From a virus, in the IMG/VR virus record IMGVR_UViG_3300028394_000216, positions 1 to 32,082 of that record: a DNA stretch of 32,082 nt; one strand, written 5' to 3'. This document shows, one piece after another, positions 1 through 30,660 of this stretch. The position numbers and the translations under genes are program-made. Each line of letters opens with the position of its first letter. Within the stretch, counting starts at the first letter, position 1. The notes under the pieces are model-generated. The model was not told where the DNA came from and searched no databases. It saw nothing but the letters and a program-made list of their open reading frames with translations.

Positions 1-530
1 CTTGCATCTCCAGCATAGCCTTTGTCTCGAAATCCAACCCTTTTAGCTCTGTCTGTCTTCACAATTGCTGCACTTATATCAATTGAATTGCGCCTATAAC
101 TTGTTTCAAAGTAAGAATAAGGCGGCAAATCTCTACCGCCAGGCCGATTGTGGGAATGCACCATGTCAAACAAAATGACATCAGGCTGCCCAGTGGCCAC
201 GTTCAAAATCTCTACCGCCCTGGGGATAAAGTAATTATCCGCATTGGTCAGCAGCAAATAATCGCCCGTGGCCTGCTCAATCCCAATCTGCCTCAAAGAA
301 TGCCCGTAGTCGTTGAATCTAGACTCTGTGCAAAAATACTTGATTTTCTCTGGCATCTGCTTGGCCAGTGGCCGCATTGCCTGCTCAAACTCGGTGCTTG
401 GCCCATCGTGAATGACTGTAAGTCGCCAGTTGTCTGCGCTCTGATTTATCCAAGACTGGACAAATACCCGCATTTCATTGGTGCGCTCATAGGCCACCGC
501 GAATACATCAATCAAACCATGCCTTCGCAT
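1..530 (-). CDS. Glycosyltransferase family 2-like protein (3' end beyond window)
   Basis: The reading frame stays open from an ATG at 530 to the left edge, so only about 176 N-terminal residues are visible. Reading the reverse strand gives a GT-A type start: a beta-strand segment followed by TVIHDGPSTEFEQA, then a segment ending LLLTNADNYFIP, where NADN sits where the family's DxD-type nucleotide-sugar site is expected. The start overlaps the end of the upstream glycosyltransferase-like gene by 23 bases. The Shine-Dalgarno signal is weak. Phages use such enzymes to glycosylate virion proteins, DNA or the host surface; the acceptor cannot be told from sequence. The family is fairly sure, the exact start less so. 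Confidence 0.75.
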   Translation of the reverse strand, partial: MRRHGLIDVFAVAYERTNEMRVFVQSWINQSADNWRLTVIHDGPSTEFEQAMRPLAKQMPEKIKYFCTESRFNDYGHSLRQIGIEQATGDYLLLTNADNYFIPRAVEILNVATGQPDVILFDMVHSHNRPGGRDLPPYSYFETSYRRNSIDISAAIVKTDRAKRVGFRDKGYAGDA

Positions 531-1200
531 ATTCTGGTCGATTCTCTTTGAGCCATGGCATTGCATCCTCATGTAGTTTTTGGAATTCCATGCCAATGGT
601 ATTGCTGCCAATGTGGTGGACATAACTGGCTGACACAAAATGTGCATAGCCTTTTTTTATCAAATCCATACAATGCACATCATCTGAGTACCAATTCAGA
701 GGGGGAAACTTTTCCTCCGAAAAAGCATCACTTGATATCCATGCAAATATTGGGCTGACCACTTGGCTCATTCTGATGTAGTTTTCAGACGGGAATTTAT
801 AGCCACTGAGCTTCTCACCCTCTTTGCTAATTCGCACATTCTGGATAGGCCGTGCCGCATCGCACCTTGCCGACACCCAGCCAGGCTTGACACTGTTCAT
901 GCTTTTCACGATCTGAACATCTTCCATCAGCACCTTCACACTTGTCGGTGTCAGCACTACATCATCATTGGCCACAATGCATGATGACCAGTCTTTCATG
1001 GCCGCCTCAATCACTTCGTTGTAATCCTCGCCAAAGTTCCTTGGTTGGCCAAAGATTTTGTAATCGGCATCAAAATGCTCAATTACAGACTCTGGGCCGC
1101 GCAGATAAACCGGACACTCTGGCGCGTATTGCCTGATTGACTCCAACAACACGGTCAGACCATGGCCTTTGACTGTGGCAATGACAATTGGGCAGATCAT
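508..1200 (-). CDS. Glycosyltransferase-like protein (GT-A fold, 230 aa)
   Basis: The N-terminus PIVIATVKGHGLTVLLES is typical of the first Rossmann-like strand and helix of GT-A enzymes. Around residues 75-85 CIVANDDVVLTP provides a DD motif equivalent to the metal-binding DxD. Near residue 170, NWYSDDVHCMDLIKKGY and then YVHHIG resemble the distal acidic and histidine region of family 2-like enzymes. AAGG lies seven bases before the ATG. The start overlaps the stop of the 98-aa gene by ATGA, which implies translational coupling. It is followed directly by a second glycosyltransferase gene. The fold is fairly confident; donor and acceptor are unknown. Confidence 0.65.
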   Translation of the reverse strand: MICPIVIATVKGHGLTVLLESIRQYAPECPVYLRGPESVIEHFDADYKIFGQPRNFGEDYNEVIEAAMKDWSSCIVANDDVVLTPTSVKVLMEDVQIVKSMNSVKPGWVSARCDAARPIQNVRISKEGEKLSGYKFPSENYIRMSQVVSPIFAWISSDAFSEEKFPPLNWYSDDVHCMDLIKKGYAHFVSASYVHHIGSNTIGMEFQKLHEDAMPWLKENRPEYAKAWFD

Positions 1201-4234: not shown

Positions 4235-4299
4235 TCGTTTACTCCGTTGTTTATGGAGTTGACATTTTTGCACAATTTGACTTGTTTGGTAACTAGTTC

Positions 4300-4326
4300 A
4301 ATATTTTTTTAAAAAATTTTTTTTGT
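4300..4326. other. AT-rich tract beside the DnaA-box cluster
   Basis: A nearly pure A/T stretch with runs of seven T, six A and eight T lies about 85 bases from the nearest DnaA box. An AT-rich segment beside DnaA boxes is the expected form of a DNA unwinding element. It could also serve in promoter or terminator function for the leftward genes. Role inferred from composition and position only. Confidence 0.4.
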
Positions 4327-4360
4327 AGGTGTTTAGTGCCGCCACAGTCGCCCCCGCCAA

Positions 4361-4404
4361 GCCGGCCACGGGGGGGTCTCGGCCACCGACCGCCAGCCGG
4401 CCAC
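4361..4404. repeat. GC-rich repeat block, GCCGGCCAC twice
   Basis: GCCGGCCAC occurs at 4361-4369 and 4396-4404. Between them is a run of seven G at 4370-4376 and further GGCCACC copies. This GC block sits between the AT-rich tract and the DnaA boxes in the non-coding stretch downstream of the small terminase gene. That location would also suit a packaging (cos or pac) site, but nothing in the sequence proves it. Confidence 0.5.
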
Positions 4405-4411
4405 CACCGAC

Positions 4412-4499
4412 TTATCCCCAGATTTTGGCCAACTTTATCCACAGATTCCTGTGCATAACTATGCTTGTAATACTTTGATGCACTTAATTCTGTGGATAA
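4412..4499. other. Cluster of four DnaA boxes, putative origin
   Basis: Within 88 bases there are TTATCCCCA at 4412-4420 (one mismatch), TTATCCACA at 4435-4443, TTATGCACA on the minus strand at 4450-4458 and TTATCCACA on the minus strand at 4491-4499. Three of the four match the bacterial consensus TTATNCACA exactly. With the neighbouring AT-rich tract this looks like a bacterial-type initiation region. The stretch 4235-4544 holds no convincing gene; an open frame across 4293-4511 simply translates these sites and the GC block. Confidence 0.6.
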
Positions 4500-4544
4500 C
4501 GACTTGTCCACTTAACATAATGGTCGTTGTATAAAGTGACTGAA

Positions 4545-5051
4545 TCATTTGGTATTCATATCTTCAATTGTCACGCTGCGCTTGCGTAATGCATCAAGGG
4601 CCATGCTTCCAAGGTCGATGTTGACCAATGGTTGCTGCTTGTCACCATACTCATCTGGCGCCTGCTTTGAGGCCATCCAGCGCCTTGTGTCCACCCGTAG
4701 CTTGGCCACTTGCGCGTCTTGAGGCGTGGCAGCGTCTGCAATTTCTAGCGTCTGCTCTGCTAAACTTCTCCCACCTCGCGTGCGTGCGCGTGCGAGGAGT
4801 TCCCCCCGCTTGGCATCTTTTTCTATCCATTTGTAGAAACCACCGATGCTTATGTCCAAAGACTTAATCACTGAATTGACTGTTTTACCCTCGGAGATAT
4901 GGTCAAAGAGCATAGCCTCACCACCGAATGCGTGAATTTTCTTATTGATCCCAGACATCTCTTTGCGCTCGATTGCAGCCTGGTCACGCAATGTGAGCTG
5001 ACGCTCAACAATGTTGTCAGCAAGTTCACTTAATGTTTGTGCTTTGGCCAT
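4545..5051 (-). CDS. terS: Terminase small subunit
   Basis: A 168-residue protein. The middle contains a helix-turn-helix segment, TVNSVIKSLDISIGGFYKWI (about residues 56-76). It is followed by SLAEQTLEIADAATPQDAQV and LRVDTRRWMASKQAPDEYGD, the conserved pattern of Sf6 gp1-like small terminases. It would bind the packaging site on phage DNA as a ring and regulate the large subunit. AAGGG lies about eight bases before the ATG, and the gene overlaps the nuclease gene by 26 bases. In most phages terS directly precedes terL; here an origin-like region and three tiny genes intervene. Confidence 0.85.
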   Translation of the reverse strand: MAKAQTLSELADNIVERQLTLRDQAAIERKEMSGINKKIHAFGGEAMLFDHISEGKTVNSVIKSLDISIGGFYKWIEKDAKRGELLARARTRGGRSLAEQTLEIADAATPQDAQVAKLRVDTRRWMASKQAPDEYGDKQQPLVNIDLGSMALDALRKRSVTIEDMNTK

Positions 5052-5412
5052 TCAAATACCCTTCAATGATTTTGATTGCATCTGGCGCTGATCTTGAGAC
5101 CAGGCACAGATATCCTTTTGCGTTTAACTGCAAACCCACAGAGCTTTGTTTCTCTGAAACCACTCCGGCCTTGGTCTTCATCTCGATGAAAAGCCCGTGA
5201 AACCCATTTTTAGGCTCCAAGACGCACAGATCAGGCATCCCTGCCAAAACCCCTTCACTGTGCAATCTGACGCGCTCTGAAGCGCTTCTATCGCCTCCAT
5301 TGGGTATTGCTGCAATGATGACCTCTGGATAAAACGCTCGAACGTGTTGCACCACCTTGACCTGGTCAATGTGTTCAATGCTTTTTCGTTTGCGCTTTAT
5401 GTCAACCACCAT
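5026..5412 (-). CDS. VRR-NUC domain nuclease (Holliday-junction resolvase-like)
   Basis: The 128-residue product shows the VRR-NUC pattern: IPNGGDRS, then E..RLHSEGVLAGMPDLCVL with the catalytic PD, then LFIEMKTKAGVVSEKQ giving the ExK pair and a trailing Gln. This is a PD-(D/E)xK nuclease fold of the size seen in phage stand-alone VRR-NUC proteins, which cut branched DNA. I used the ATG at 5412, just inside the end of the upstream gene. GAGG lies too close to it, so the neighbouring GTG codons at 5409 or 5406 are possible starts. It would resolve replication or recombination intermediates before packaging, which suits its place beside terS. Confidence 0.85.
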   Translation of the reverse strand: MVVDIKRKRKSIEHIDQVKVVQHVRAFYPEVIIAAIPNGGDRSASERVRLHSEGVLAGMPDLCVLEPKNGFHGLFIEMKTKAGVVSEKQSSVGLQLNAKGYLCLVSRSAPDAIKIIEGYLNGQSTNIK

Positions 5413-5717
5413 GCCTCGGATTCTACTGCCGTGGCTTTGGCTTGAAACATGTGGCATCGGTGTTTGACATCGGTCGGGAATGCAGCCAGTCCAGTTCGGC
5501 CGCACTGATGTTCGGACCATGTCACTGTTGCCCATCCACCTCTGACCTTTGCCTGGTCAAACATCCACTGCAATGGTTTTGCGTTGACCTTCCTGTGCCT
5601 TTCCATTTGTTCTGCTGGCATCGACTGGTGTTGTTCGACCATTTCCGCATTAGCGCAGTTTTGACAGAAAACGCGCTCATCTTCGACCATTTCATCAATT
5701 GTGGATAACCTGTGCAT
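5397..5717 (-). CDS. 106-aa Cys/His-containing hypothetical protein
   Basis: An AGGA-containing ribosome site lies a few bases before the ATG at 5717. The product has CQNC near residue 18, then scattered Cys and His (CGRTGL, HRCHMF), suggesting a small metal-binding protein, but no family is recognised. Its first codons are built from two adjoining DnaA boxes (minus-strand TTATGCACA and TTATCCACA), so protein start and origin signals coincide. It is the first gene after the iteron region and overlaps the nuclease gene by 16 bases. A copy of the iteron (5643-5653) also lies inside it. Confidence 0.62.
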   Translation of the reverse strand: MHRLSTIDEMVEDERVFCQNCANAEMVEQHQSMPAEQMERHRKVNAKPLQWMFDQAKVRGGWATVTWSEHQCGRTGLAAFPTDVKHRCHMFQAKATAVESEAWWLT

Positions 5718-5839
5718 AACTTTCCTTTCTGTTGGACCATCAAATGCTCGTTTCTAATACGGAAAACCCTTAAGGAATTTTCCGCCTTTCCGCATTAGAA
5801 ATCTGAGTAGCCACTAAGCCGAGACTGGTCTGTGGATAA
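5700..5839. other. DnaA boxes in the iteron region, putative origin
   Basis: TGTGGATAA at 5700-5708, TGTGCATAA at 5711-5719 and TGTGGATAA at 5831-5839 are perfect minus-strand matches to TTATNCACA. The first two overlap the start of the 106-aa gene; the third sits at the base of a long hairpin. Together with the iterons they suggest an initiation site bound by both a phage protein and host DnaA. Confidence 0.6.
5761..5783. other. Nested palindrome between iterons
   Basis: GGAAAA at 5761-5766 and TTTTCC at 5778-5783 flank the perfect 8-base palindrome CCTTAAGG (5768-5775), almost sharing one centre. It lies between the first two iterons of the array. It may be a dimer-binding site or part of the origin; role unknown. 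Confidence 0.5.
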
Positions 5840-5864
5840 GTGGGTCTAATGACCCCACTTATCC
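5834..5864. other. Long inverted repeat in the iteron region
   Basis: GGATAAGTGGGTC at 5834-5846 and GACCCCACTTATCC at 5851-5864 form a 13-pair stem with a single bulged base and a TAAT loop. The outer base pairs include the TTATCC core of DnaA boxes on both strands. No T-tract follows, so it is unlikely to be a terminator. A protein-binding or origin structure is more likely. Confidence 0.6.
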
Positions 5865-5939
5865 AACAATCCCTGCCATTGTCTAATACGGAATTCCGCA
5901 TTAGTTCCGTATTAGTTCCGCCTTTCCGCATTAGACCAA

Positions 5940-8069
5940 TCATGAGAGTCTGACCCAGCCTGATAGTGGCTCGTTTGGTGCGAATCTGGTGAAGATGGCC
6001 GTGCCAATATGCTTGCGGATATAGCCTGCGTCACTGCCTTTGACAGTGCTAAATATTTCAGTCCAATCCAGTTGGTAGGCGTTTTGGAGTTCTTTTGGCA
6101 CGACTGGCCTGCCTGGTCCCCTGCGCATAATGACGCTGCCTCTGTCGTTGATGATGGACTGGACATGGTTGCAGACCTCATCGCACTTGTCTTGGATGCG
6201 CTGCTCTTTGGCGCTGTCTTGCTGGGACTGCTTGGCGGCCATCCGGTCTTGTTCTGACGACATGGCTGGAATGGCCACCCGACAAATAATCTCTTGCATA
6301 TCGCCAGCTGGGGTCAGGACAACTTCTGGGAATGTGATGGAGTCGAATTTGATCTCTCTAAACTGAGGCTCGTAGCGCGTTTTTGTCAGCTTTAGGTAGC
6401 GCTGGTTATCCTCATCCATGAAAAGCACGCCAGTCAGGGTTGCATCGCCTGTAAATGCGCTTGCACCACGGGCCATGGCATCGGAGTCTTGTCGGCTTAT
6501 TGTTTTGTTTGTGTGGGTCAGGATACAGACTGGCGCTTTTTGCTGAATGAAAATGGTCTGCTTGATGGCGGCAATATAGGCTCCGACTTCTGAGTTGTCA
6601 TTCTCGTTGTCAATATCCATGGTCGCATTGGCCGTGTCCAAAACTAATAATGGTTTGATATTGTTAACTGTATGGCGCTCAATATTATGTGCAAGCCTAA
6701 GTAAATCTTTGACATTAGACCTTCTGGCATCAATAACCACAAACCAGTCGTTTAGGTTATTTATCTTGTAATGCTTTGAATATGCAAAAAGAGTTCGGAT
6801 TATCTGGTCACTGTCTTCAGTCACGATAATTGACTTGCGTTTCTTTTTAGCGTGAATCTCGCAGCCATCCACTGCAAACCCTGCCATGACCATGCACATT
6901 GACAGCACTGCTGTGGTCTTTCCGACTCCAGGCTGACCGGCCAAGATGAAAAACGAATGGGCCATGAAACCCTCGATTAGGTAATCGATGGGGTTTAAGT
7001 GGGTCAGGTCTAGCGTCAGCTCTGGCCATGACGGGTCTGGCGCATCTTCTGTGACTGGTGCATTGATCACGGCTGCAAAGTCTTCCACGGCTGACTTGCG
7101 TTCTGAGGTCTTTGTTGGTGGCTCCCAACCGCAGTCTTTAGCGTGTTTGAAGAGTGTGCCAATGCCAACACCCTTGCCCTGGTGAAAGCTCTTCCAATGG
7201 ACTTCAATGTCTTTTGTGCCTTCGTATTTGCTACCGCCTTGGGACCATGAGTCCCATATAGATAAGCCTTGCTCACCGAATTCAGTGTGCAGCGCTTGGC
7301 CGATCTCTATCCACTGGTCGTAGTCACAGTCTGGGCTAATGTGATGCAAAGCCTGCACGGCCTTGGCCATTTCATCTGGAGCGCCTTTGGACAACATCTG
7401 GGTGAAGTCAAATGATTGTGATGGGGCGACTGACTTTGGCTCTTGCAGCTGGTGCTGCTCAATGATGCCCCAGTCCATTAACAATTCATGCAAATTGACG
7501 GCCTCTTGGAATTCACCGACCACCGAATTGCCAGAAAGTAACACTGACTTGCCTGCACTGTTTGGCAGGCCGAATACTTCCAGTTCTTGGCCGCCACCCA
7601 GTTTGTACTTGGGCAGCACCTGGTCAGATTCTTTGGGTGGTTGGACCCATAAGAAGACATGACGGCCACGGCCTGAGACAGAAACCTCGGTCAGCATCTG
7701 CTTTTGCTTGACAAACTTGGCCATGCGCTGAATAGCCACATTGGTGGGGCCGGAGGCGTGTTTCATATCCACATCAAGGCAAACCAAATAGTTCCCTGAT
7801 GCGCTGATGATGGGGCGCTGCTGGACTAGGCCAAGATATTGACCATGGGGTGCATCTTCCATGGCCCAGATGTCTTCAGAGTTGTACAGATCGCTTGGGT
7901 CTGTATCCCGTGCCACACCTTGGCCGCTTCGTTTGTATGGAATCTTTTTGTTGCCTTGCAGGGCAAAGGTACAAAAGACAGCATCAGGGGCGACAGCGCC
8001 AATCTTGCAAGCCACACTCTGTGACTGGGCGAATGTATTGGGCAGGGGTGTTTCAGTTATAGTGGTCAC
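5940..8069 (-). CDS. Primase-helicase (AEP-type primase, PriCT-2, RecA-like helicase)
   Basis: A 709-residue multidomain replication protein. N-terminal part: CLDVDMKH with the metal-binding DxD (D99, D101) and VSVSGRGRHVFLW with His137, the archaeo-eukaryotic primase pattern. Residues about 236-316 (SPDCDYDQWIEIGQALHTEF, later HWKSFHQGKGVGIGTLF) fit PriCT-2. The helicase part has Walker A GQPGVGKT (378-385), Walker B-like LLVLDTAN (about 474-481) and THTNK. The C-terminal 100 residues are basic and may bind DNA. I prefer the GTG at 8069, which AAAGGA precedes by six bases; an upstream ATG at 8096 has no clear ribosome site. It ends six bases from the iterons, so it is the likely initiator as well as primase and helicase. 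Confidence 0.88.
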   Translation of the reverse strand: MTTITETPLPNTFAQSQSVACKIGAVAPDAVFCTFALQGNKKIPYKRSGQGVARDTDPSDLYNSEDIWAMEDAPHGQYLGLVQQRPIISASGNYLVCLDVDMKHASGPTNVAIQRMAKFVKQKQMLTEVSVSGRGRHVFLWVQPPKESDQVLPKYKLGGGQELEVFGLPNSAGKSVLLSGNSVVGEFQEAVNLHELLMDWGIIEQHQLQEPKSVAPSQSFDFTQMLSKGAPDEMAKAVQALHHISPDCDYDQWIEIGQALHTEFGEQGLSIWDSWSQGGSKYEGTKDIEVHWKSFHQGKGVGIGTLFKHAKDCGWEPPTKTSERKSAVEDFAAVINAPVTEDAPDPSWPELTLDLTHLNPIDYLIEGFMAHSFFILAGQPGVGKTTAVLSMCMVMAGFAVDGCEIHAKKKRKSIIVTEDSDQIIRTLFAYSKHYKINNLNDWFVVIDARRSNVKDLLRLAHNIERHTVNNIKPLLVLDTANATMDIDNENDNSEVGAYIAAIKQTIFIQQKAPVCILTHTNKTISRQDSDAMARGASAFTGDATLTGVLFMDEDNQRYLKLTKTRYEPQFREIKFDSITFPEVVLTPAGDMQEIICRVAIPAMSSEQDRMAAKQSQQDSAKEQRIQDKCDEVCNHVQSIINDRGSVIMRRGPGRPVVPKELQNAYQLDWTEIFSTVKGSDAGYIRKHIGTAIFTRFAPNEPLSGWVRLS

Positions 8070-8116
8070 TGAAATTCCTTTAATTTGGGGTTTCATGTAG
8101 TTGCCATTTTGAATTC

Positions 8117-10618: not shown

Positions 10619-11185
10619 ATGACCAGAGTTGTAACCGGCAAAGTTCGTTTCTCATACTTCTCAGCTTTGACAGCGCGCAAGAATGAGATGAACGGCAAAG
10701 AAGAGTTCTCAACACAAGTGCTTGTCCCAAAGACAGACACCGAGACTGTGAACCAATTGAAAGCGGCAGCCAAGGCCGCATTGACCGCCAAGTTCGGAGA
10801 CAAGATTCCGAAAAACATTCGCAATCCCTTGCGTGATGGCGACACCGAGAGCAAGTCTGATGGCGGCCCACTGGGTCCAGAGTACGCAGGGCATTACTTT
10901 TTTAACACCAAGTCCACCAACAAGCCTGGTGCAGTGGATGCCCATGGCCATGACATTCTTGGATCACAAGATATTGTCTCTGGCGACTATGGCCGCGTGT
11001 CTTTGAATGCCTATGCTTATGACCAGGCGGGCAACAAAGGCGTGTCGTATGGTTTAAACAACATCATGCTTTTGTCAAAGGGTGACTCGCTGGGTGGTGC
11101 AAAGCCATCGGCTGCATCTGACTTTGGCGTGGTGGCCGGCAAGAGCGCACCAGCTGCTGTACCTTCAATCGACAACGACTGGTGA
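10619..11185 (+). CDS. DUF2815 single-stranded DNA-binding protein (Enc34-like)
   Basis: A 188-residue protein fitting the DUF2815 family, whose phage Enc34 member is an OB-fold ssDNA-binding protein. Conserved stretches seen: TGKVRFSYFSAL near the start, FSTQVLVPKTDTET (about 30-43), NPLRDGD (69-75), YFFNTKS and YGRVSLNAYAYDQAGNKGVS (about 124-143). The tail ends in the acidic/aromatic SIDNDW, like the partner-binding tip of bacterial SSBs. AAGGA is well spaced before the ATG. It is the natural partner of the nearby DUF2800 nuclease and SNF2 helicase, although transcribed in the opposite direction. The stop lies 21 bases inside the tail-to-tail HTH gene. Confidence 0.88.
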   Translation: MTRVVTGKVRFSYFSALTARKNEMNGKEEFSTQVLVPKTDTETVNQLKAAAKAALTAKFGDKIPKNIRNPLRDGDTESKSDGGPLGPEYAGHYFFNTKSTNKPGAVDAHGHDILGSQDIVSGDYGRVSLNAYAYDQAGNKGVSYGLNNIMLLSKGDSLGGAKPSAASDFGVVAGKSAPAAVPSIDNDW

Positions 11186-11365
11186 TTTGTCGATCAGTTT
11201 ATTAAGTGCCAAGTGCAATTGATTAACTGATGTCCACAGAGGCTCCACAGTTCCACTCAGCCACCGGCTTACCTGGGACTGCTGGATGCCAGCCTCATCG
11301 CACACCGCAGCCATGGTTATCTTGTGAGCCTTGGCCCTTGCGCGTATTGTGTGAATTGATTCCAT
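11165..11365 (-). CDS. HTH (XRE/Cro-type) repressor-like protein
   Basis: The 66-residue protein is essentially one DNA-binding domain: TMAAVCDEAGIQQSQVSRWL (about 17-36) is a helix-turn-helix with the typical Q-S-Q-V-S-R-W recognition helix, followed by helices typical of Cro/C1 proteins. It has no dimerisation or cleavage domain. No Shine-Dalgarno precedes the ATG, and a -10-like TAGAAT ends only six bases upstream, so the message may be leaderless, as for lambda cI. It is the only leftward gene inside the rightward segment, overlaps the SSB gene tail-to-tail by 21 bases, and is divergent from the GIY-YIG-like gene across an operator-like region. Confidence 0.78.
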   Translation of the reverse strand: MESIHTIRARAKAHKITMAAVCDEAGIQQSQVSRWLSGTVEPLWTSVNQLHLALNKLIDKSPVVVD

Positions 11366-29386: not shown

Positions 29387-30010
29387 TTATCCAAAAGTCT
29401 TTGCACGGGTCAGCAATGCACCACCAGAAGATGCACCGCGATCATCGGCAGTTTGTAAATCGTTTAAGGCTCGCTCATAGAGCGTTGCCCATGTCTGGAT
29501 TCTCGCATCATCTTGCAAGTATGGTGCAGCCTGGAGCAATGCCCCATACAGATAAATATCAGGACTCGATGACAAAAGCCAGTTGCTGGCCACACTGCTT
29601 GATAACTTTGTTAACTTGGCGTAATAGGTCAGCTCGGTCGTGTAGTTACTATCTGGTGTTGGGACAATTCTAAACTGGCCACCAACAACACCAAAGAATT
29701 TTGGCTTGCCGCTGGCCGTGTAATTGGCTGCCTCATTGTCCAAGGCATCAATGCTCAAAAACTGCAATGGGGTCTGGGGATTGGTGCTTGTGAGCTTCAA
29801 AGATTTGGTCTCAAGAAAGTCGCTTGGCACTGCGCCATATTGGGCGTCAAAAGAAGCATTGGCCCTGACAATCATCTGCCTGGTGCGCAGTGTGCGTTCC
29901 ACTTGTGCCTCGGCCAGAGAGATAAAGTCAGGAATGGCCGTGGTTAGGTCCGACCGATTAAGCCAGTCACCAATGGATGTCTTCAGCTCTGTATAGGTTG
30001 TCAGTGCCAT
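29387..30010 (-). CDS. Head-tail adaptor, P22 gp4-like
   Basis: 207 residues from ATG at 30010, which shares its first base with the preceding TAA (TAATG). The open frame extends to 30049 but without support. The start MALTTYTELKTSIGDWLNRS, then IPDFISLAEAQVERTLRTRQ, is the helical N-terminal signature of gp4-like adaptors that bind under the portal ring. A beta-insertion (LTSTNPQTPLQFLSIDALD) and a helical C-terminus follow. It would connect portal and tail in a short-tailed virion. Supports the podovirus assignment. Confidence 0.82.
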   Translation of the reverse strand: MALTTYTELKTSIGDWLNRSDLTTAIPDFISLAEAQVERTLRTRQMIVRANASFDAQYGAVPSDFLETKSLKLTSTNPQTPLQFLSIDALDNEAANYTASGKPKFFGVVGGQFRIVPTPDSNYTTELTYYAKLTKLSSSVASNWLLSSSPDIYLYGALLQAAPYLQDDARIQTWATLYERALNDLQTADDRGASSGGALLTRAKTFG

Positions 30011-30660
30011 TATTGGGCCTCTTTTTCCATCTCTTCTTTCACAATCCAAGTGTGTTCATGGCGAAATTCAAACGTGCCAATGTGGCCAATTTCCTTTGAA
30101 ACGTCATGGTCGATGTAAACCTTGTAGCCCAGCTCTTGAGCTTTCTTACAAAAGAACACATCTTCTCCCATGTAGCCCCGTGTGGTCTGCCATGGCATAT
30201 CAAACCATGGCTCACTCATGCCCTCAAACACCTCGCGCTTGATCAGCATTATGCCAGTGCCAATGCTTCCCACCTCTTCTAATCCAGTAGATTCTGGCAT
30301 GGTGTAGACCGCCTGGCGCTTGCCATTCTCGTCATAGTTCTGGGCAGTTGGGCCGGTGGGCATTCTGCGTCTGGCACAGTTGGCAGCCACAATCTCTTTG
30401 TCGTGCTTTAAGAGCCGCTGGACCATGTCCTGTGGGAATGTCATGTCCGAGTCAATGAAAAGAATGTGGGTGCAGCCTTCGGCCATGGCATCCAAGCAAA
30501 GGTCAGCCCTTTGGTTTTGAATAATCGTGCCTTGCATCAATTTCAGACTGATAGCGTCTTCAGTGTTGAGTGTGTGATAAGCCACCATATTGACCATGCA
30601 ATATGTGTAATTTGTGTGGACCTGATCACGGGCCGGTGTGCAGACTGCAATGTAATTCAT
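30010..30660 (-). CDS. Glycosyltransferase (GT-A fold, phage type)
   Basis: A 216-residue enzyme. NYIAVCTPARDQVH opens the fold, THILFIDSDMTF contains the DxD metal/nucleotide-sugar motif (D70, D72), and RGYMGEDVFFCKKAQELGYK (about 161-180) the acidic catalytic region, followed by HDVSKEIGHIG with the metal-binding His. This is the pattern of the phage glycosyltransferases found next to structural genes. It may glycosylate capsid or tail proteins, as it lies between capsid and adaptor genes. Starts with ATGA overlap at 30657-30660. Confidence 0.8.
   Translation of the reverse strand: MNYIAVCTPARDQVHTNYTYCMVNMVAYHTLNTEDAISLKLMQGTIIQNQRADLCLDAMAEGCTHILFIDSDMTFPQDMVQRLLKHDKEIVAANCARRRMPTGPTAQNYDENGKRQAVYTMPESTGLEEVGSIGTGIMLIKREVFEGMSEPWFDMPWQTTRGYMGEDVFFCKKAQELGYKVYIDHDVSKEIGHIGTFEFRHEHTWIVKEEMEKEAQ

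Follow-up and report, generated by a model that had tools for sequence, protein, structure and literature searches.

A primase-helicase gene and the repeats beside it

The window, the whole stretch of DNA that was analyzed, covers 32,082 bases and is a linear fragment of viral DNA, so the absence of a gene from the window alone says little. It carries rep, which encodes a fusion of an AEP primase(-polymerase), a PriCT-2 domain, a RecA-like helicase, and a putative C-terminal iteron-reading domain. An earlier reading of the same DNA, made from the sequence alone, had recognized the fused primase-helicase but ended its unit at 8069; the gene, on the minus strand, starts at 8096. Downstream of rep lies an origin-like block, in which the seven copies of CTAATRCGGAA and the three DnaA boxes described in that sequence-only reading were all found as exact matches at 5643-5934. 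The features of the locus are collected in Table 1.

Table 1. Features of rep and of the adjoining repeat block (positions in the window unless given as Rep residues)
Feature	Position	Strand	Basis or remark
rep, fused AEP primase(-polymerase)/PriCT-2/RecA-like helicase/putative C-terminal iteron-reading domain, 718 aa	5940..8096	-	Pfam and fold matches
C-terminal domain, residues 621-718	5943..6236	-	only part of Rep that follows iteron type
AT-hook-like motif R-[RK]-G-x-G-R-P	residues 658-664 of Rep		in the C-terminal domain
Predicted helix pair	residues 678-684 and 691-705 of Rep		AF2 model
Iteron 1, CTAATGCGGAA	5924..5934	-	exact match; 5 bases past rep stop codon
Degenerate half copy, AGGCGGAA	5916..5923	-	direct reading; preserves 8-11-11 start spacing of other types
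Iteron 2, CTAATACGGAA	5905..5915	-	exact match
Iteron 3, CTAATGCGGAA	5894..5904	-	exact match; 11 bp from iteron 2
Iteron 4, inverted copy abutting iteron 3	5883..5893	+	exact match
Conserved dyad/hairpin, outer arm overlapping DnaA box	5833..5865	.	strand folding and compensatory changes
DnaA box TTATCCACA, part of hairpin arm	5831..5839	-	exact match
Iteron 5, arm of convergent pair	5788..5798	-	exact match
Iteron 6, opposite arm of convergent pair	5754..5764	+	exact match
DnaA box TTATGCACA	5711..5719	-	exact match
DnaA box TTATCCACA	5700..5708	-	exact match
Iteron 7, inside coding sequence of next ORF (5397-5717)	5643..5653	-	exact match
Second cluster of three DnaA boxes	4435..4499	4435(+), 4450(-), 4491(-)	about 1.3 kb from iterons

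Pfam matched Rep to PriCT_2 (2.3e-21) and AAA_25 (1.6e-16); the helicase part, with the Walker A motif GQPGxGKTT, gave AAA_25/DnaB_C matches and KaiC/RepA folds. An AlphaFold model of full Rep, built from 21 relatives, was weak to moderate (pLDDT 70). A Foldseek search matched the N-terminal third to the primase-polymerase of phage NrS-1 (six chains, E 9e-8 to 1e-6), covering the AEP/PrimPol fold with its helix bundle, and the expected AEP catalytic residues D108, D110, and H146 are invariant in 21 relatives. The center of the protein matched KaiC/RecA-type ATPases, including the hexameric helicase RepA of RSF1010 (1g8y; E 4e-3, probability 1.00), a similarity by fold only.

The C-terminus is basic, as had been noted, with a pI of 9.1 for the last 98 residues and 10.1 for the last 64, against 5.9 for the whole protein. 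When the last 134 residues were modelled alone the AF2 pLDDT was 88; the model runs from the end of a beta hairpin through a 38-residue helix (615-652), a strand, a short strand, and the helix pair to a final strand. Foldseek gave no match to this model in the PDB with E below 0.8, and sequence and profile searches with the C-terminus gave none, so we do not claim a known DNA-binding fold for it. Among 50,697 phage records the C-terminus occurs only in MW202879.1. Plasmid homologues were partial, under 50% identical, with none covering 80%, which leaves a recent plasmid ancestry unsupported. We class the putative replicon as one of the iteron type in which the combination of domains is new and the C-terminal domain has no known relatives; among the papers covered by a literature search, none combined phage, iterons, DnaA boxes, and a primase-helicase.

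The seven exact copies of CTAATRCGGAA in the block are the only ones in the record, against 0.02 expected by chance from shuffles. Five lie on the minus strand and two (5754-5764 and 5883-5893) on the plus strand. In-phase direct repeats adjoining an initiator gene, here with 8-11-11 spacing and an inverted copy, are a feature of iteron replicons; the second copy of the series is degenerate in the window's type. An A/T-rich opening element was sought beside the iterons, and from -200 to about +1600 in the window no 30-mer reached 76% A+T, the nearest that did lying about 1.6 kb from the iteron block. The unit thus appears to work like an iteron replicon, but to depart from that type in missing the A/T-rich opening region. 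Rfam and tRNA scans gave no matches.

Exact TTATSCACA boxes number six in the window, against 0.76 expected and a maximum of four in 100 shuffles; the second cluster, at 4435-4499, had been absent from the sequence-only reading. It adjoins a conserved G7 run (4370-4376) and an A/T tract (4300-4325). The dyad, previously described as a 13-pair inverted repeat, is present and conserved, with 12 perfect pairs (5833-5844/5854-5865), or 14 with one bulge when folded as a single strand. It seems to be more than an inverted repeat: six different sequence versions of it all gave single-stranded DNA fold z-scores of -3.8 to -6.2. In one relative (L064) both arms are altered and the stem is kept, at the cost of a broken DnaA box, and in one clade C hairpin a C/G pair is replaced by A/T. 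Because such paired changes keep the stem, we regard the hairpin as a structural element, apparently acting on the single strand and resembling the ssi sites of RSF1010 (PMC4538821) or the stem-loop of the pRN1 origin (PMC4234260).

Iteron types and the C-terminus of Rep

Three scans of viral contigs yielded over 100 rep loci, of which 102 were distinct and had both protein and origin sequence after removal of duplicates. The iteron/DnaA-box unit is conserved among them, as the sequence-only reading had proposed to check, and its layout is kept down to about 50% protein identity, although the repeat word differs. In relatives at least 76% identical whose protein ends as in the window, the distances of the seven iterons and the three DnaA boxes from the stop codon are almost unchanged. 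The remaining relatives lack CTAATRCGGAA and carry another word at the same places. We distinguished type A (CTAATRCGGAA, the window's type), type B1 (GTAATGCGGTA), type B2 (GTAAA[C/G][C/A]GGTA), type C (TCGRRGATACC-like words, at about 51% protein identity and including the complete circular genome MW202879.1), and type D (a fifth word, in L149 and L150).

Across the types the same order recurs: starts spaced 8-11-11 (found in clades B and C), an inverted copy, the hairpin with its DnaA box, and the convergent pair, after which come one or two DnaA boxes and, within the next ORF, a final copy. At that last site, iteron 7, the word changes in the other clades too; it is mismatched in L034, where one wrong-type copy is tolerated at the block edge. 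Three DnaA boxes in the first cluster were found in 28/28 type A, 7/7 B1, 33/36 B2, and 2/2 D loci, and two or three in 25/26 of clade C, so that 98/99 relatives having the region carry two or three. Given this conservation, DnaA likely assists at the origin. The second cluster holds two or more boxes in 45/55 non-C relatives; clade C keeps its G/C run and A/T tract there, and the boxes are gone.

A few other leads were set aside. The sequence TTCCTTTGG, which lies between the convergent iterons and was set against the NrS-1 site TTTGGTTA, was considered as a primase start motif common to all types, but type A and most of type C do not conserve it. By eye, no origin of this type was present in the stretches read on either side of repA in MW202711.1. 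The one match in genome_contigs, to a MAG called Acidimicrobium, is probably a misbinned phage contig, and we draw no host claim from it.

Comparison of Rep proteins part by part showed them to be recombination mosaics. Four relatives with B1 iterons (L033, L034, L036, and L037) are about 90% identical to the window through residue 620 and 51 to 55% beyond it. Most B2 phages are 80 to 94% identical to the window in the N-terminus, about 72% in the helicase, and about 50% in the C-terminus, and L047 combines a divergent N-terminus with a type A C-terminus and type A iterons. A natural swap is seen between L009 (type A) and L036 (type B1), which share 95% identity over residues 1-360 and 97% in the helicase, against 51% in the C-terminus. 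L151 and L149 share 85% identity through residue 620 and 60% after it, and L151 carries B2 words; L151 appears to be an independent switch between a D-like Rep and B2 words, its C-terminus being no closer to B2 than to B1.

Mapped on domain trees, iteron type changes 24 times on the N-terminal tree, 11 on that of PriCT, 8 on that of the helicase, and 4 on that of residues 621-718, the minimum possible for five types. All 22 alignment columns that separate A from B perfectly lie in residues 623-718, with none in 1-620, and so do all 13 that separate B1 from B2. Along the DNA toward the end of rep the changes number 25, 17, 8, 6, 5, and 2; the origin itself shows 2, and the stretches past it 10 and 18. 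Because the changes are minimal there and rise on both sides, the exchanged cassette is taken to be the C-terminus plus the origin. At residue 661 every A and B1 protein (TAAT words) has P, 36/36 of B2 (TAAA words) have S, and those of D have A; the AT-hook-like motif occurs in types A, B, and D, which use words containing TAA(T/A), and is absent in C, whose words have no TAA. These correlations suggest DNA contacts. The sequence-only reading had held that the protein reads the iterons through its C-terminus, and co-switching of domain and word now makes residues from about 621 to 718 the likely reader.

The main caveat is that adjacency alone could produce this co-switching. The coding region of the C-terminus neighbors the iterons, and one crossover can exchange both without touching either. 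On such an account another part of Rep, or another protein, would read the iterons, and the C-terminus would merely travel with them; the contiguity of the two, the exchange tracts that span both, and the gradual drop in change counts toward the origin all fit it. Concerted change of all copies requires a reader, however, and both trees and columns single out 621-718, with an edge near residue 621, whereas residues 521-620, only 300 bp further, show 5 changes against 2 and no column separating A from B. Recombination is seen in flanks about as far apart (upstream 5 changes and downstream 10 and 18, against 2 in the block), which favors, without proving, a functional bond. The apparently independent switch in L151, and the tracking of word type by residue 661 (P/S/A) and by the GRP motif, absent in C, also speak against mere linkage, and we consider it unlikely.

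Position of the probable origin and the apparent lack of a polymerase

GC skew passes at the rep stop from about zero or negative to clearly positive in ten near-complete relatives, in MW202879.1, and in the window. Genes on either side run in the same direction, with no change of coding strand at the step, and third-position skew shifts there too. In four circular or end-repeat complete genomes the cumulative minimum lies at -22, -31, -152, and -223 from the rep stop; these genomes are related, two of them belonging to clade C, and are not four independent tests. The maximum is not opposite the minimum, lying at about +11 to +12 kb in three genomes and -10 kb in one. The block thus sits at the cumulative skew minimum, a check that the sequence-only reading had put forward, and 5643-5939 is probably the replication origin, with the C-terminus of Rep as its reader.

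The iterons could instead be operators, through which the C-terminus of Rep represses or activates a promoter of the downstream genes (a small ORF, VRR-NUC, and terminase), with replication starting elsewhere, for example at 4435-4499. The convergent pair does lie just before the next ORF and the last copy inside it, and clade C has TTGACA beside the pair; yet no sigma-70-like promoter was found at 5400-6000. The second DnaA-box cluster, with its A/T tract 1.3 kb away, would offer a starting place, but the skew minimum falls at the rep stop and not there, and in clade C that cluster is without any boxes while the first keeps its own. Initiation also accounts better for the conservation of the hairpin and for a binding protein that is a primase-helicase, and the operator reading seems to us as improbable as mere linkage. 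A double role of the iterons as operator and origin is possible.

It had also been noted that no polymerase is visible in the window. Searches of 17 near-complete relatives found no DNA polymerase of family A, B, or C, each search having a working control; a DNA_pol_B_2 search without one was not counted. In phiM5 and MW202496.1, phages that are sisters by terminase and capsid, a DNA polymerase is annotated (of family A in the former), and the lineage therefore appears to carry the iteron replicon instead. The claim needs qualifying in that the N-terminal fold of Rep matches the NrS-1 primase-polymerase (E 9e-8), and Rep itself could polymerize. In a variant of our preferred explanation, genome replication would rely on the phage's primase-polymerase, following the proposal made for NrS-1, and would not use the host replicative polymerase. 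Together with its helicase and SSB partners, the NrS-1 enzyme synthesizes long products (PMC8718748), and the phage encodes an ssDNA-binding protein (Pfam) and no polymerase of families A, B, or C was found; sequence similarity to NrS-1 is marginal, however, polymerase activity is not readable from sequence, and in RSF1010 the RepB' protein, also beside a RepA helicase, only primes, with Pol III extending (PMC4538821). We hold this variant to be possible but rather doubtful.

A candidate self-contained replicon and its nearest counterparts

The best reading, which we think probably correct, is a self-contained replicon in which Rep would recognize the origin through its C-terminus, unwind it, and prime, with DnaA assisting. 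The lineage is podovirus-type, apparently without a conventional DNA polymerase, and rep would encode the initiator of the adjacent origin. C-terminal domains (about 621-718) of several Rep molecules would bind the 11-bp-phased iterons, the inverted copy and convergent pair fixing polarity. Host DnaA at the neighboring boxes would help to open the DNA or to distort it. Rep's RecA-like ring would load on the opened strand, and the hairpin would be exposed, where Rep's own AEP/PriCT-2 domains would prime. Host DNA polymerase III would then extend or, less likely, Rep's own primase-polymerase activity. We infer DNA binding, opening, loading, priming, origin activity, and the choice of elongating polymerase. 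The sequence-only reading had the host replisome loaded after recruitment of DnaA; DnaA may load host DnaB, but this is not required, and because ring helicase and primase are both phage-encoded, host DnaB/DnaG may be dispensable.

By its parts, the unit is closest to RSF1010 (IncQ; RepB'/RepA/RepC) fused into one chain. The iterons of RSF1010 are about 20 bp long; those of the phage are 11 bp. Both systems pair an AEP primase with a RepA-type hexameric helicase (by fold match to 1g8y in the phage), have iterons read by a dedicated domain (putatively so in the phage) and hairpins beside them, and lack, apparently so in the phage, the usual polymerase of their own (PMC4234260, PMC4538821). RSF1010 differs in using three separate proteins, including the RepC initiator and RepB' primase, where the phage has one ORF, and conserved DnaA boxes set the phage apart; its C-terminus may be no relative of RepC. 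P4 alpha, previously named among the closest arrangements, holds as a functional analogy only: a single chain there too combines a primase, a helicase, and DNA binding at the C-terminus (putative in Rep), and iterons are present. Its helicase, however, is of superfamily 3, a feature of P4 alpha, pRN1, and NrS-1 that Rep, with a RecA-like helicase (AAA_25, RSF1010 RepA fold), does not share, and we know of no comparable DnaA-box layout in P4. The P4 primase is of the Toprim type (PMC4234260), another kind than that of Rep.

NrS-1 resembles Rep in its N-terminal AEP fold and helix-bundle domain, but its helicase ring belongs to superfamily 3 and its start site, of 8 nt, is found twice per genome (PMC7102993). 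In layout, the nearest counterparts of the unit are pRN1, with ORF904, and Bordetella phage BIP-1/BPP-1, which share the AEP primase, PriCT-2 (BIP-1), a C-terminal DNA-binding domain (putative in Rep), and an origin hairpin directly 3' of the gene (PMC4234260). They differ in having a superfamily 3 helicase and no origin iterons, and the hairpin beside rep is far smaller than the 100-nt stem-loop of pRN1. In lambdoid phages the DNA-binding domain of the initiator O and the origin iterons covary and swap as a module, although that initiator is unrelated to Rep. In such trading of domain and origin, the unit is closest to the PLE satellites of Vibrio cholerae, whose RepA DNA-binding domain and origin iterons likewise covary and swap (PMC8263062); the initiator is again unrelated, and PLE replicates only during ICP1 infection.

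At its furthest, the argument would assign to one polypeptide the recognition of the origin, its unwinding by the ring, de novo priming, and the bulk of DNA synthesis in a tailed phage of 36 kb. Its origin specificity would pass between phages as a single cassette of C-terminus and iterons, so that at least five replicons would share a fixed syntax and yet be orthogonal to one another, and selection against cross-recognition might keep them diverse; we consider this whole unlikely. Origins of uncultivated phages are rarely located, and here a lineage appears to use an iteron replicon where phages with sister capsids, phiM5 and MW202496.1, carry an annotated DNA polymerase. Its relatives form a natural domain-swap series, in which a constant primase-helicase is joined to exchangeable readers and a constant syntax to exchangeable words. 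Initiator-iteron recognition thereby becomes testable residue by residue, and several possibly orthogonal replicons are on offer.

Features at the edge of the putative origin

The 106-aa ORF at the edge of the putative origin (5643-5939, just past the stop of the primase-helicase gene, rep) gave no match in a family search, and the complete circular clade C genome MW202879.1 keeps a corresponding small ORF. The N-terminus of this ORF must change with the iteron word; MW202879.1 retains it as a small ORF nonetheless. The related locus L034 carries a type A iteron at +291 downstream of the rep stop, inside the next ORF, while its origin and Rep C-terminus are of type B1. These mixed iterons mark a recombination edge within the origin, and the type A copy beside a B1 origin and C-terminus suggests that one outer copy of the wrong type is tolerated.

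Coordinates of features in the window and in a clade C relative
Feature	Position	Remarks
Glycosyltransferase-like gene	window 3-647	
Possible third glycosyltransferase-like gene	window 508-1200	no Pfam match
DnaA-box, G/C-rich and A/T-tract element	window 4289-4545	3' of terminase small subunit gene
106-aa ORF	window 5397-5717	two DnaA boxes and last iteron within 5' end
Small Cro/C1-like HTH gene	window 11165-11365	opposite strand to ssDNA-binding protein gene
Glycosyltransferase-like gene	window 30010-30660	
Gamma-delta-type serine resolvase gene	L088 23827-24495	clade C

Other genes and a related contig

The glycosyltransferase-like genes adjoin podovirus structural genes, and the overlap between the antiparallel HTH gene and the gene for the ssDNA-binding protein lies at the 3' end of the latter. 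Locus L149 lies on CAINTF010000009.1, a 9.9-kb phage contig of the same lineage as the window, in a genome bin labelled Acidimicrobium; this placement is probably a binning error.

The element after the terminase gene and the clade C resolvase

In the element, three DnaA boxes are followed by a G/C-rich stretch, which includes seven or eight consecutive C residues (GACCCCCCC), and an A/T tract (AAAAAAAATTTTTTAAAAAA). L027, L033, L056, and L119 have counterparts at roughly +1400 to +1760 relative to the rep stop codon; clade C (51% Rep identity) keeps the C run and A/T tract, without the DnaA boxes. The element is possibly a packaging site (cos/pac) or a second replication site. Immediately 3' of it, clade C carries a gamma-delta-type serine resolvase gene (about +1.6 kb from the rep stop in L112, L119, and L121), so named in the MW202879.1 annotation; in clades A and B its place is taken by an unrelated small ORF. 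The clade C resolvase is a plasmid-like trait.
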